64,000 nt of DNA from Polyangiaceae bacterium (GTDB taxonomy: Bacteria; Myxococcota_A; Polyangia; Polyangiales; Polyangiaceae). The notes under the pieces were generated by a model. It was not told where the DNA came from and ran no database searches. It saw nothing but the letters and a program-made list of their open reading frames with translations. Both the position numbers and the translations under genes were made by a program. Shown here in pieces: positions 57,745-62,267 of the stretch; positions within the stretch are counted from its first letter, which is position 1, and each line of letters opens with the position of its first letter. The stretch spans positions 244,333 to 308,332 of the forward strand of contig CANJMI010000004.1 in assembly GCA_947475525.1 (NCBI GenBank), given 5' to 3'.

Positions 57745-57878
57745 GGTTCGTTGCCGCGCATTCTGCCCTAAGCAGAGTCGAACAGGGCCTCGTTCGTGGG
57801 GCGGGAGGGTCGCATAGGCCGCGCCGGCGGTGCGAGTGCGCTTGCGGTGCTCCGAAGGGTTTGGTAGCGCTCTCCGTC

Positions 57879-58724
57879 ATGACGCGTTCTGGGTTGGGTA
57901 CCGCTTGTGTGGGTTTCCTCGTCTGCATGACGGCAGCGTGCGGCCACTCCGAAGAAGAGTGGCTCGCTCAGCTTGGCAAGTACGAGCAGCTCGTTACGCA
58001 GAACAACGACACCAAGCGCAAACATGCGGAGGTGAGCGCCCAACTCCAGGCCGAGAAGGACCGCGCGTTGAAGCTTGCTCACGACCTCGAGTCGATGGGC
58101 ATCGACATGAAGAAGCTCGGTGCCGACTTGGACACGCGTAACACCGAGCTCGGTCAGCTCTCGGCGACGCAGCGGGATCTCGAAGCCGCGCTCTCTGAAT
58201 ACAAGAAGCGCGCCGACCAGCTCGAGCGAATCAAGCAGCGCTTCGAACAGCTTCGCAAAAAACTCGAGACGCTGACGAGCCTCGGTCTGTCGGTCAGCAT
58301 CCGCAACAACCGGATGATGATCTCGCTGCCCGGTGACGTGCTCTTCGATACGGGCAGAGACAGCCTGAAGAAGGACGGCCAGTCGATCCTCGACAAGGTG
58401 GCGCAGATCATCAACGCGGACGCTTCGCTTCGATCGCGCTTCTACCAAGTTGCCGGACACACCGACAACGAGCCCCTCAGGGGCGGCGTGTTCCGGGACA
58501 ACTGGGGCCTCTCGCTGATGCGCGCGCGCACGGTGCTCCTCTACCTCATCGATCCGGATAAGGGAGCACTGCCCGACAAGCGCTGGAGCGCCGCCGGCTT
58601 CGCGGACACCGACGCTATCACCGAGAACGAGTCGCCCGAGGGGCGCCGGAAGAACCGTCGCTGCGAGCTTGTCGTCGTGCCAAGCGCTGAAGAAATGCTC
58701 GATTTGAAGAACATCGCTCAATAA
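57879..58724 (+). CDS. OmpA-family lipoprotein with coiled coil
   Basis: The 281-residue protein starts with a lipoprotein signal (GFLVCMTAAC, Cys21). A coiled coil follows at about 30-130 (LERIKQRFEQLRKKLETL and related). The OmpA-type C-terminal domain at about 150-270 has LPGDVLFDTGRDSLKK, VAGHTDNEPL, NWGLSLMRARTVLLYL and RRKNRRCELVV. It resembles the 28672 gene in layout. Only nine bases separate its stop from the selenoprotein start, so the two are probably co-transcribed. A TTG six codons earlier is an alternative start. Confidence 0.9.
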   Translation: MTRSGLGTACVGFLVCMTAACGHSEEEWLAQLGKYEQLVTQNNDTKRKHAEVSAQLQAEKDRALKLAHDLESMGIDMKKLGADLDTRNTELGQLSATQRDLEAALSEYKKRADQLERIKQRFEQLRKKLETLTSLGLSVSIRNNRMMISLPGDVLFDTGRDSLKKDGQSILDKVAQIINADASLRSRFYQVAGHTDNEPLRGGVFRDNWGLSLMRARTVLLYLIDPDKGALPDKRWSAAGFADTDAITENESPEGRRKNRRCELVVVPSAEEMLDLKNIAQ

Positions 58725-58733
58725 GGAGCCGTC

Positions 58734-58949
58734 ATGATTTACGAAATCCGCTACTGCGTAATGTGAAGCTACCTTCCAAAGGCCTCGAGTCTCGGGGCTG
58801 CGATGAAGGCGAAGACGGGCGTAAGTGTGAAGCTTACGCCAGGTGGGCGCGGTGAGTTCAGCGTGCTCGCCGACGGCAAGGTGCTCTGGGACAAGTCTCA
58901 GACGCACCGGTTTCCCGAGCACGCGGAGATCCTCTCGCAGTTGGCGTAA
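58734..58949 (+). CDS. selW: SelW-like (Rdx family) selenoprotein with in-frame UGA
   Basis: The frame from ATG 58734 to TAA 58949 holds 71 residues, with one internal TGA at 58764-58766. Read as Sec it gives MIYEIRYCVMUSYLPKASSL, so Cys8 and Sec11 form a CxxU redox motif in the exact place of the CxxC/U site of SelW/Rdx proteins. Downstream features also fit the family: KLTPGGRGEFSVLADGKVLW and the FPEHAEI ending. A thioredoxin-like fold of about 70-80 residues is usual. The ribosome site AAGGAG lies five bases before ATG. A SECIS-like hairpin follows the TGA. Ordinary gene callers see a 10-residue peptide. SelW is a small cytoplasmic redox protein, possibly glutathione- or thioredoxin-linked. 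An unsuppressed pseudogene is the alternative, but is unlikely given the placement. Confidence 0.88.
58772..58809 (+). promoter_or_regulatory. Bacterial SECIS-like hairpin after the UGA codon
   Basis: Bases 58782-58788 (GCCTCGA) pair with 58792-58798 (TCTCGGGGC region), with one G-U, leaving a GTC loop. A lower stem CCTTC (58772-58776) pairs with GAAGG (58805-58809) across an internal loop. The loop G at 58789 is 22 bases after the TGA. Bacterial SECIS elements have a small apical loop with an early G about 16-37 bases after UGA, bound by SelB. The structure was folded by eye. Confidence 0.7.
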
Positions 58950-58994: not shown

Positions 58995-60158
58995 TCAGAA
59001 GGTACCGACGAGCCCCATCCCCGTAGGTCCGAGGTACGGCGCGATGCTGGCCTGCGCCTTCGTGAAGCCTGGAAACATCGGTCCGGGCACGACGAAGGCC
59101 GACACGGTACCTGCGACCGCTCCGAGCCCGCCGAATACGAGCGCGACGTTCGATGCGTTGGCGAGCGTGATGGCGCGATCGTAATCGGGCCGCGCAGCCT
59201 CGCTGCAATTGAGCAAACTTGGGCAGAGGTCACGCGCGCGGGAAGCCGCGGAGAGCGACAGTCCGCCGGTCACCACCCAAGTGACGAAGCCGACGGCGCC
59301 GACGCCGAAGGAGCCCCACACGAGCCACGGCTTGATGGCCGCGTTCGGCGACTCGGGAACACGCGGTGGCGGCGCAATCAACGCGGGCGGCGGCGCAATC
59401 AACGCGGGCGGCGGCGCAATCAACGCGGGCGGCGGCACAATCAACGCGGGCGGCGGCGCAATCAACGCGGGCGGCGGCTCCGGTGGCAGCGGCTCCGGTG
59501 GCAGCGGCTCCGGTGGCAGCGGCTGGAGCACGAGCCGAACGGGCTGGGTGTCTTTCTCCGCAACGTTGAGCGTCATGGGCTCGGCGCGATACCTTTTCGC
59601 CGTCGCTGCGACGACGTGGGCCCCGGGATTCACTTTGCGCGGCAACGTCGCGCTGAGGCCGGTGAGCTCCACGCCATCGATCACAACCTTCGCGTCTTCG
59701 AGCTGGCCGCCGTCCGCCGCCTCGAGCGTCGCGAGCAGCGACGGGATGCGCAGCGCGAGCTCCGCCGCGAGAGACTTAGCCTTCGCGCGCGCCTTGGCAA
59801 AAGCCGCAGGTTCATTCCGCTGCGCGGGCATCAACGCGACTTGCACGCAGGTGTCGTGAGCCTCGAGGAGTTGCTCCACTTTCGTTTGGGCCAACGCGAG
59901 CAGGATCCCGGTCGTAGGCACGCCCATGATCGCGTGGGCTTGGTTGTACGCGTCGAGCGCGCCCGCAAAGTCGCTTTGCTTCGTCTTGTCGTGGCCGAGG
60001 CCGACGAGTGTGCGCGCCGTCTCTTTGTCTGCCGCGCTCGGTTCGAGACGCGCCGAGGGCTCACCGGCGTGCGCAATCATAGGTAAAACGCTACTCATCG
60101 CGAGTGCCGCGACAAGCAAGACCAAGGGGCGTGTCCGCTTAGAAGCCAAGGTCTTCAT
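58995..60158 (-). CDS. Exported PEGA-like protein with proline repeats and two membrane segments
   Basis: The 387-residue protein has a signal peptide (LVLLVAALAMSSVLPMIAHA). A TPR-like helical region follows at about 40-145. A short PEGA-like strand domain runs at about 150-210 (DAKVVIDGVELTGLSATLPRK, then PGAHVVAATAKRY). A low-complexity linker has three LPPEP and five PPALIAP repeats. Two hydrophobic segments lie near the C-terminus, WLVWGSFGVGAVGFVTWVV and VALVFGGLGAVAGTVSAFVV. This is a common myxobacterial partner of a nearby kinase. Its start overlaps the kinase stop by 20 bases. Confidence 0.8.
   Translation of the reverse strand: MKTLASKRTRPLVLLVAALAMSSVLPMIAHAGEPSARLEPSAADKETARTLVGLGHDKTKQSDFAGALDAYNQAHAIMGVPTTGILLALAQTKVEQLLEAHDTCVQVALMPAQRNEPAAFAKARAKAKSLAAELALRIPSLLATLEAADGGQLEDAKVVIDGVELTGLSATLPRKVNPGAHVVAATAKRYRAEPMTLNVAEKDTQPVRLVLQPLPPEPLPPEPLPPEPPPALIAPPPALIVPPPALIAPPPALIAPPPALIAPPPRVPESPNAAIKPWLVWGSFGVGAVGFVTWVVTGGLSLSAASRARDLCPSLLNCSEAARPDYDRAITLANASNVALVFGGLGAVAGTVSAFVVPGPMFPGFTKAQASIAPYLGPTGMGLVGTF
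59371..59520 (+). repeat. Tandem repeats: five 21-bp units then three 15-bp units
   Basis: Five copies of a 21-base unit (GGCGCAATCAACGCGGGCGG plus C, one copy with a single change) run from 59371 to 59475. They are followed directly by three exact copies of GGCTCCGGTGGCAGC at 59476-59520. Both unit lengths are multiples of three and encode the PPALIAP and LPPEP repeats of the overlapping gene, so slippage would change linker length in frame. Confidence 0.92.
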
Positions 60159-61746
60159 GCGAGCTCGACTTCGGTACGGTGACGCGAGGTGGCGCAACGA
60201 CGGGACGGCCGTTGTGCGCGGCTACGGTAGTTTTCCGGGTGACAGGAGCCGAAGGCTCGGCGGAGACGACCGACGTCGCGCTCGGTGCGGACGCGGCGAC
60301 CTCGGCAACGGGATTTGCAGAATCCACCGAAACAGCGGCGGAGCTGCCCAAACCAGCAGCGGGCCTCGCCACCGCAACGGTGACTGTAGGCTCGGGCGGC
60401 ACGGCCACGGTGTCGAGCGTTGCGGCGCTACTCGGTGCACGCGACGCACTCGGGGTACTGCCACTCGGAGCGCGCGTCGCAAACCAGGTTACGACGCCGG
60501 CCAACGCGAGTGCCGCGAAGGCCGCGCCAACCAGCTCGAGCCGCATCTTGCGAACCGGAAGCGGCTCGTCGGCGCCAGGCCCCGCGATCGAATCGACGTA
60601 GGAAGGTCGGTCGTCGACGTCCTCGAGCTCATCGACGATTTCGAGCACACGCCGAGAGGAGCGTGGCGCATCCGGTCCGCGCGAGGTCGAGCGCGACGAA
60701 CGCGGCGGCGGCGTAAGCTCGAGCGACATGTCCAAGCTGTCATCTTCGAAGTCGTCTTCGAGGTCACCGTCGGCGAGCGAGAGCTCGCGCCCACGCGGAA
60801 GCACGCCAACCTTCGTGCCGTGTCTGATGCCCGCAGGCATCACCGAGAACCGCGCTTCTCCGACATCCAGAAGCTCGGACTCGATGTCGCCGACGCGCGT
60901 AGGCACCGCACGAACGAACGCGAGGGCCATGTCGCGAGCGGAGATGAAACGCTGCTCGGGGTCGGTCGCGAAGCATTTCGCGAACCAGTCATCGATCGCG
61001 GACGGCACGTCCTCGCGCAGCTGCGAAGGCAACGCGTAAACCCCAAGGACGATGTTGGCGCACACCATTCCAATCGTCGAGCCACCGAACGGCACCTCAC
61101 CTATCAGGCACTCGTAGGCCACGACCGCGAGCGCCCAGAGGTCGGCGCGATGGTCGGCCGCGGAGCCGTCTACAATCTGCTCGCGCGAGATGTACTCCGG
61201 TGTGCCGATGAGCAACCCGTCGCCGGTAAGCTTGCGGGCCTCAGGCATTCGAACCGACTTCGCCACGCCGAAGTCGACAAGCTTGATGAGCTTCCCCTCG
61301 TCGACGGGCACGAGGAAAATATTCGAGGGCTTGATGTCGCGGTGAACGATGCCGACCTTGTGGGCCGCCCGCAGGCCCTTCGCGACTTGCGAGACGATTT
61401 GCGCGGTTTGACGCATCGTCAGTCGACGGACACGCTCGAGCCGAAGGTCGAGGCTCTCACCTTCGAGGCGCTCCATCACGATGTAGGGCGTGCCGTCCTC
61501 CATCTGCCCTTGGTCAAAGACCTGGACGATGTGCGGGCTCTTGATCTTCGCGGCGACGGCGGCCTCGCGCTTGAAGCGCGTGACGGCCTCTTCCCGGTTC
61601 GCGACTTTCGCGAGGATGAATTTGACGGCCACTTCCGTCTCGAGCGTCAAGTGCTCCGCCAGCCACACGGACCCCATCGCCCCCTCGCCAATCGGCGACA
61701 CGAGGCGGACGTTGGTGGTCACCATCGTCCCGGATTCAAGCGGCAT
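60139..61746 (-). CDS. Membrane-anchored Ser/Thr protein kinase
   Basis: The 535-residue protein has a kinase domain at about 14-280. It contains GEGAMG in the Gly loop, the Lys in VAVKFI, HRDIKPSN and DFGVAK, and TPEYISREQ in the activation loop. An acidic linker with DLEDDFEDDSLDMS and many Arg/Ser follows. One membrane segment (LELVGAAFAALALAGVVTWFA, about 425-445) leads to an Ala/Val/Ser-rich outer tail. Layout equals the kinase at 13013. It is followed by the PEGA-like gene, overlapping by 20 bases, so they are probably co-transcribed. Confidence 0.93.
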   Translation of the reverse strand: MPLESGTMVTTNVRLVSPIGEGAMGSVWLAEHLTLETEVAVKFILAKVANREEAVTRFKREAAVAAKIKSPHIVQVFDQGQMEDGTPYIVMERLEGESLDLRLERVRRLTMRQTAQIVSQVAKGLRAAHKVGIVHRDIKPSNIFLVPVDEGKLIKLVDFGVAKSVRMPEARKLTGDGLLIGTPEYISREQIVDGSAADHRADLWALAVVAYECLIGEVPFGGSTIGMVCANIVLGVYALPSQLREDVPSAIDDWFAKCFATDPEQRFISARDMALAFVRAVPTRVGDIESELLDVGEARFSVMPAGIRHGTKVGVLPRGRELSLADGDLEDDFEDDSLDMSLELTPPPRSSRSTSRGPDAPRSSRRVLEIVDELEDVDDRPSYVDSIAGPGADEPLPVRKMRLELVGAAFAALALAGVVTWFATRAPSGSTPSASRAPSSAATLDTVAVPPEPTVTVAVARPAAGLGSSAAVSVDSANPVAEVAASAPSATSVVSAEPSAPVTRKTTVAAHNGRPVVAPPRVTVPKSSSHEDLGF

Positions 61747-61921: not shown

Positions 61922-62267
61922 GGGGCCGAAGGGTTTCGACGTGGGGACGGAAGGTACGTCTGCGTGCTGCGGCGCCTGGACCGCGAAATAACCGGGCCGT
62001 TTAGTTGCGAACGACAACGCGCTTGCTCTTGCTGCCTGAATAAAGGGTAGTGAGCATCTGAGGGGAAGGTCGTCCTAGTACCCCAAAGGTGTCAATCACA
62101 GGGCTGGGTGACACGAGGCTGCTCGACGTAGCGTCACCGAGAAACACGGCGAGATAGGTCGTGGCCGAATCCACGAACCCCGCCTCTTGGGTAATGAGGC
62201 TACGCACGTGAACGAAGGCGCACTGGAAGCCTTGCGGACGCGGGTTCAATTCCCGCCGGCTCCACCA
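61922..62267 (+). ncRNA. ssrA: Transfer-messenger RNA (tmRNA)
   Basis: The 5' end GGGGCCGAAGGGTTTCGACG is the classical tmRNA start. The 3' end GCGGGTTCAATTCCCGCCGG then CTCCACCA gives a T-arm and acceptor ending in CCA. The acceptor strands GGGGCCG (61922-61928) and CGGCTCC pair over seven bases with one G-U. The tag reading frame starts at GCG 62007 and ends at TGA 62037-62039, encoding ANDNALALAA, which ends in the expected ALAA-type degradation signal. It rescues stalled ribosomes with SmpB. Length 346 is normal. Confidence 0.95.

Follow-up and report, generated by a model that had tools for sequence, protein, structure and literature searches.

A selW-like gene with an in-frame UGA predicted to encode selenocysteine in a Polyangiaceae genome

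The selW-like gene and its surroundings

The window, that is the whole stretch of 64,000 nucleotides that was analysed, comes from a Polyangiaceae genome and carries a small gene of the SelW-like (Rdx) family with a TGA in frame at codon 11. The features of this locus, in window coordinates, are the following:

57861-58724, plus strand: upstream OmpA-family gene (PF00691)
58723-58728, plus strand: AAGGAG, a Shine-Dalgarno-like site by its sequence, 5 nt 5' of the ATG
58734-58949, plus strand: predicted selW-like selenoprotein gene, 71 codons plus TAA, TGA at codon 11
58734-58736, plus strand: ATG start
58764-58766, plus strand: in-frame TGA, predicted selenocysteine codon (U11 of C8-V-M-U11)
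58782-58798, plus strand: apical hairpin of a predicted bacterial SECIS (bSECIS), 7 bp (58782-58788 with 58792-58798), loop GUC
58803-58805, plus strand: internal ATG, in frame, start of a truncated call of 48 residues
58947-58949, plus strand: TAA stop

The readthrough product comprises 71 residues with the redox motif C8-V-M-U11, where U comes from the TGA, and 60 codons lie 3' of the latter. When U was entered as C, PF10262 (Rdx/SelW) spanned residues 4-69, nearly the whole length of the product, with 57.3 bits (E 1.8e-15, cut-off 22.6), and TIGR02174 scored 45.2 bits (cut-off 34.2). Given this E value over residues 4-69, the readthrough frame is not a product of chance. The best-scoring NCBIfam model was NF041051 (the SelTWH_Campy equivalog) with 72.6 bits, which is below its cut-off of 88 and places the product outside this narrower subfamily. 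Seven distinct PDB sequences were matched at E <=1, the best being 3dex (SAV_2001) at E 5.6e-6, and the TGA aligns with the second Cys of CxxC in both PDB alignments shown. A preliminary description of this DNA had located an in-frame TGA at the second redox residue of a CxxC/U motif, with 60 further codons of Rdx/SelW residues after it and an AAGGAG before the ATG. The first is borne out by the PDB alignments and by the matches in the class, the second by the PF10262 E value and by TIGR02174 scoring above its cut-off, and the third by the site at 58723-58728; the coordinates given there for the gene, the TGA and the ATG at 58803 all hold.

Ordinary annotation was expected to truncate the gene from the ATG at 58803, and this is what was found in a search of 5.8 billion predicted proteins, where only two were returned (P0002 and P0003), each of 48 residues. 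P0002 is the window's protein from ATG 58803 and represents 6 sequences on 36 contigs; P0003 is the equivalent piece of a relative, 85% identical. This start is not conserved: of 108 aligned rows, only 3 have ATG at the position, one being that of the window's gene and the other two a double count of its nearest relative, and 6 others have GTG or TTG.

The OmpA-like gene upstream ends in a TAA (58722-58724) that overlaps the AAGGAG, and both genes are probably co-transcribed. A direct OmpA protein search identified an OmpA gene upstream in 10 of 108 loci from 9 genomes (L022 and L029 are the same record), and this pairing says little on SelW function. No neighbour common to the SelW loci across the class was found, with flanks of only about 500 nt in 72 of the 108 loci, where neighbours lying farther away or of low similarity may have escaped. 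A neighbour clustering of the 36 loci with long flanks was set aside, as it apparently mixes overlapping antisense frames. Elsewhere in the window there is a tmRNA gene (61922-62267, plus strand) with the tag ANDNALALAA, and short tandem repeats at 59370-59530 form PPPALIA and PLPPE runs in a minus-strand frame (58995-60197) in which no Pfam match was identified at E 0.001.

Hairpin after the UGA and selenocysteine genes of the genome

The hairpin was analysed in a gap-free alignment of 108 rows, with numbering that starts at the T of the UGA. Positions 19-25 pair with 29-35, and 93.4% of the hairpin cells are paired. Covariation was 0.438 against 0.173 in shuffled alignments, with none of 500 shuffles as high and slid versions of the hairpin reaching 0.175 at most; cells changed on both sides numbered 91 against 27.8 in shuffles. 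Two further measures were close to the shuffled values: pairs with change on both sides (3 versus 3.9, not above shuffles) and further pair types (11 versus 9.7, a value reached in 53 of 500 shuffles). RNAalifold, unaided, proposed five of the hairpin's pairs as the only structure. The clearest sign of the predicted hairpin is the two-state wobble covariation at positions 24 and 30. Each is the third base of its codon, and the two form C-G in 65 and G-C in 35 of 101 distinct sequences, with one sequence left unpaired. The loop G at 58789 (position 26) is invariant in all 101; the six counted pairs are all formed in 81 of them, and at least four in every one. This wobble covariation provides a clean and testable candidate SECIS.

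When the hairpin was scored as retained if the 48-nt fold had four or more of its five core pairs, 83 of 97 distinct TGA sequences retained it versus 1 of 21 Cys sequences; after synonymous recoding (20 trials) only 13 to 28 of the 97 did. Single-sequence folds were only mildly better than shuffles (z -1.04 and -1.56, with 29/200 and 12/200 shuffles folding as well) and would not, alone, have settled the hairpin. The hairpin lies 22 nt from the UGA, with 7 bp, loop GUC and -18.4 kcal/mol for 49 nt. These values fall within the bSECIS constraints stated in the relevant part of PMC13188914, namely a stem of 4-16 bp, a loop of 3-9 nt whose first two positions include a G, a distance of 16-37 nt to the UGA and an MFE of at most -7.5. 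Compared with its nearest relative (L029), the window's gene has no changes in the 36 nt of codons 12-23, while the 32.3 synonymous sites of codons 24-70 have 26.5 changes. Against two other genomes of its genus (L030 and L031), 5 and 4 of the 12 residues of codons 12-23 are changed, respectively, whereas the synonymous changes there number 1.3 for about 9 sites.

The genome of the window (5.15 Mb, 59 contigs, 98.9% complete) contains the full set of selenocysteine genes. One tRNA-Sec was identified above the cut-off (71.6 bits, anticodon TCA), with selB about 1 kb from it on contig 3. SelB (303 bits, 635 aa) possesses the winged helices SelB-wing_2 and SelB-wing_3, SelA was identified with 481 bits (470 aa) and SelD with 321 bits. 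The last of these has its own in-frame TGA, and the predicted fold of its gene contains a hairpin after the UGA:

L018:1390-2439 (contig C22), minus strand: selD, itself a predicted selenoprotein gene, motif GGGU-ARK

The preliminary description had implied a host that uses selenocysteine, which is supported by the presence of selA, selB, selD and tRNA-Sec, all searched for and all found in the same genome.

Among the other families searched in this genome (SelD, Fdh-alpha and AhpC-TSA), an in-frame TGA was identified only in SelD; none of the 6 stretches matching Fdh-alpha (TIGR01591) and none of the 14 AhpC-TSA matches (PF00578) has an in-frame stop. A covariance model (R1), with SelW included in its own alignment, gave 31 matches at E <=10, SelW being the only one below 0.01. 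Among the other 30, 11 loci were inspected by eye, none of which showed a convincing TGA in a plausible reading frame; the length filter of this inspection skips SelW itself too, which has only 10 codons 5' of its TGA.

TGA and Cys forms across the class

The search for SelW-like genes covered 317 genomes of the window's class and gave matches in 118 of them, at 124 places, all taken as loci. The codon at the Sec position is TGA in 102 and Cys in 21, with L111 as the only match that does not reach it, and neither TAA nor TAG was found there in any of the 124. Homologues with C or U at this position, which the preliminary description had proposed to look for, are both abundant. TGA-form SelW is widespread in the class (100 of 317 genomes), while 18 genomes contain only the Cys form. 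Of the 123 matches extending to residue 11, 122 have the first Cys of the motif. The exception, L137 (G146), is Rdx-like and carries a Cys at the Sec position. The residues between the TGA and the ATG at 58803 are conserved among TGA-form rows as NY-PRAASLAA. L111 and L149, both from G059, are partial matches at contig ends with overlapping sequences, and look like halves of one gene.

Seven further matches were identified in named contig records, where six have TGA (Acidobacteria, Blastocatellia, two Planctomycetota, Polyangiaceae and one further bacterium) and one, from a Chloroflexi genome, has Cys; the Polyangiaceae record (L022) is the same as L029 and is counted twice. Three other genomes of the window's genus (L029, L030 and L031) have TGA at the same codon, and in a fourth (G290, 67% complete) a SelW match was not found. 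Two different TGA-form genes were identified in each of G184 (L048, L148) and G185 (L053, L113), two genomes of a single genus, and the two genes of each pair stand far apart in the tree.

This tree comprises 128 proteins and 77 columns, with 33 of its 125 inner branches open. A single clade (support 100/100) holds 20 of the 22 Cys rows, with motif CRW or CRF, and the remaining two are long branches. Since nearly all Cys rows form one clade with this support, the Sec and Cys forms are mostly separate subfamilies, rather than recent swaps.

A tRNA-Sec was identified in 87 of the 100 genomes with TGA-form SelW versus 51 of the 217 others, counted per genome and uncorrected for relatedness. In 6 of these 138 tRNA-Sec genomes the best match is weaker than 1e-10 and 85-90 nt long, possibly a tRNA-Ser; without them the table reads 87, 13, 45 and 172. 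Two strong tRNA-Sec matches are present in some genomes (G050, G084, G086, G129 and G118). The 13 genomes with TGA-form SelW in which the strict tRNA-Sec match is absent gave, in a laxer search, two matches above the cut-off, of 84 and 86 nt, which are perhaps tRNA-Ser. SelA was above the cut-off in 9 of these 13 and a fragment was present in a tenth; it was not found in G309 (93% complete), G043 (73%) and G103 (71%). As these 13 assemblies are drafts, each in 190 to 1550 contigs, the absent tRNA-Sec and SelA probably lie on contigs that are missing.

Reading of the UGA and comparison with known systems

The gene is a SelW-like member of the Rdx family whose in-frame UGA at codon 11 is very probably read as selenocysteine. 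This is a strong inference from sequence, and the hidden SelW-like selenoprotein of the preliminary description is supported by the frame, the family match, the conserved TGA, the hairpin and the Sec genes of the same genome. In the expected mechanism, SelA and SelD would make Sec-tRNA(Sec) with anticodon UCA, SelB would carry it and bind the hairpin loop through its C-terminal winged helices, and translation would then go on past residue 10 with Sec inserted at the UGA. From its family, the product would be a small thioredoxin-fold protein with a redox role, whose C-x-x-U pair could form a selenenylsulfide and act in thiol redox chemistry, perhaps with glutathione.

Were this TGA a true stop, selW would be dead or split, and no more than a 48-residue protein could be made from ATG 58803. 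Gene callers do give that protein, and UGA ends 8 of the 10 window ORFs taken as genes, so it is not generally reassigned. However, a stop that has decayed or split a gene accounts poorly for a TGA kept at one codon in 102 of the 124 class matches with TAA or TAG in none, for the conserved NY-PRAASLAA in a segment that the shorter protein lacks, for an internal ATG confined to 3 of 108 rows and for the wobble covariation 3' of the TGA, which together make this explanation highly unlikely. A full-length protein would equally be expected if a near-cognate tRNA read the UGA, for example as Trp or Cys, with no selenium involved; this is very improbable in view of the complete Sec set of the genome, the bSECIS layout of the hairpin and the tRNA-Sec found in 87 of 100 genomes with TGA-form SelW.

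The last alternative is that the TGA is a Cys codon (TGC or TGT) corrupted by an error of sequencing or assembly, and Cys is indeed the alternative of the family at this position (21 of 124 class matches). Nevertheless, 20 of the 22 Cys rows lie in a separate CRW or CRF clade (support 100/100), and the hairpin is present in the fold of only 1 of 21 Cys sequences. As the same TGA occurs in three other genomes of the genus (L029, L030 and L031) and, across the class, at 102 of 124 matching places, and is followed by a covarying hairpin, an error is exceedingly unlikely. The preliminary description had named as grounds for rejection either the lack of Sec machinery and of homologues or such an error; both were checked and neither speaks against selenocysteine at codon 11.

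A more tentative proposal is that SelW is Sec-only across the class, and that the Sec apparatus of this 5-Mb genome serves mainly SelW and SelD. This is possible rather than probable, and entails that UGA and hairpin were retained in about 100 species and practically never replaced by a Cys orthologue. If so, the Sec residue of SelW would be functionally irreplaceable in these bacteria, and not a convenience.

The SelW family, its CxxU motif and its omission by annotation are already in print (PMC1088965, PMC1794560, PMC4607533, PMC13188914). The SelW passages of these sources describe bacterial SelW-like (SELENOW-like) selenoproteins that resemble the window's gene in the CxxU motif, the Rdx family (PF10262), the single Sec and a bacterial SECIS just 3' of the UGA (PMC1088965, PMC1794560, PMC13188914). 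They have been in print since 2005, when they were the most abundant selenoprotein family in the Sargasso Sea set with 48 genes (PMC1088965), so the window's gene is one more member of a known family. Their function is described in the same source as unclear, with CXXU suggesting a redox role and an interaction with glutathione found. The table of PMC1794560 counts 10 SelW-like, and that of PMC5029168 gives 35 and 35, taken as organisms and genes. According to the SelW passage of PMC1794560, Sec-containing organisms have few or no Cys homologues of SelW-like, and the hosts are Desulfotalea, Geobacter, Alkaliphilus, Desulfotomaculum and Symbiobacterium; Polyangiaceae, the family of the window, is not among the hosts listed there.

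Open-licence literature searched by myxobacterial names gave no papers on myxobacterial selenoproteins or selenocysteine, a search whose words Anaeromyxobacter escapes. Anaeromyxobacter is a myxobacterium. PMC1794560 attributes 11 selenoproteins to this genus, none of them SelW-like.

The epsilonproteobacterial SelW (PMC4607533, NF041051) is likewise reported there as missed by annotation, and the window's product differs from it in scoring 72.6 bits, under the NF041051 cut-off of 88. The Cys-type Rdx proteins 3dex (SAV_2001), 2fa8 (Atu0228) and 2ojl belong by sequence to the same family, with CxxC in 3dex and 2ojl versus CxxU in the window's product; the Cys-type rows of the class, unlike the TGA form, constitute a separate clade mostly lacking the hairpin. 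Mammalian SELENOW also has CxxU, as stated in the passage on it in PMC8508763, and is likened here by motif and not by sequence; the eukaryotic SECIS is placed in the 3' untranslated region, unlike the bacterial one, in the corresponding part of PMC3328465. The window adds one more gene cut short by standard annotation at a UGA predicted to be recoded. What may be new is how widespread TGA-form SelW is in the window's class, whose family goes unnamed in the SelW passages of the selenoproteome surveys.
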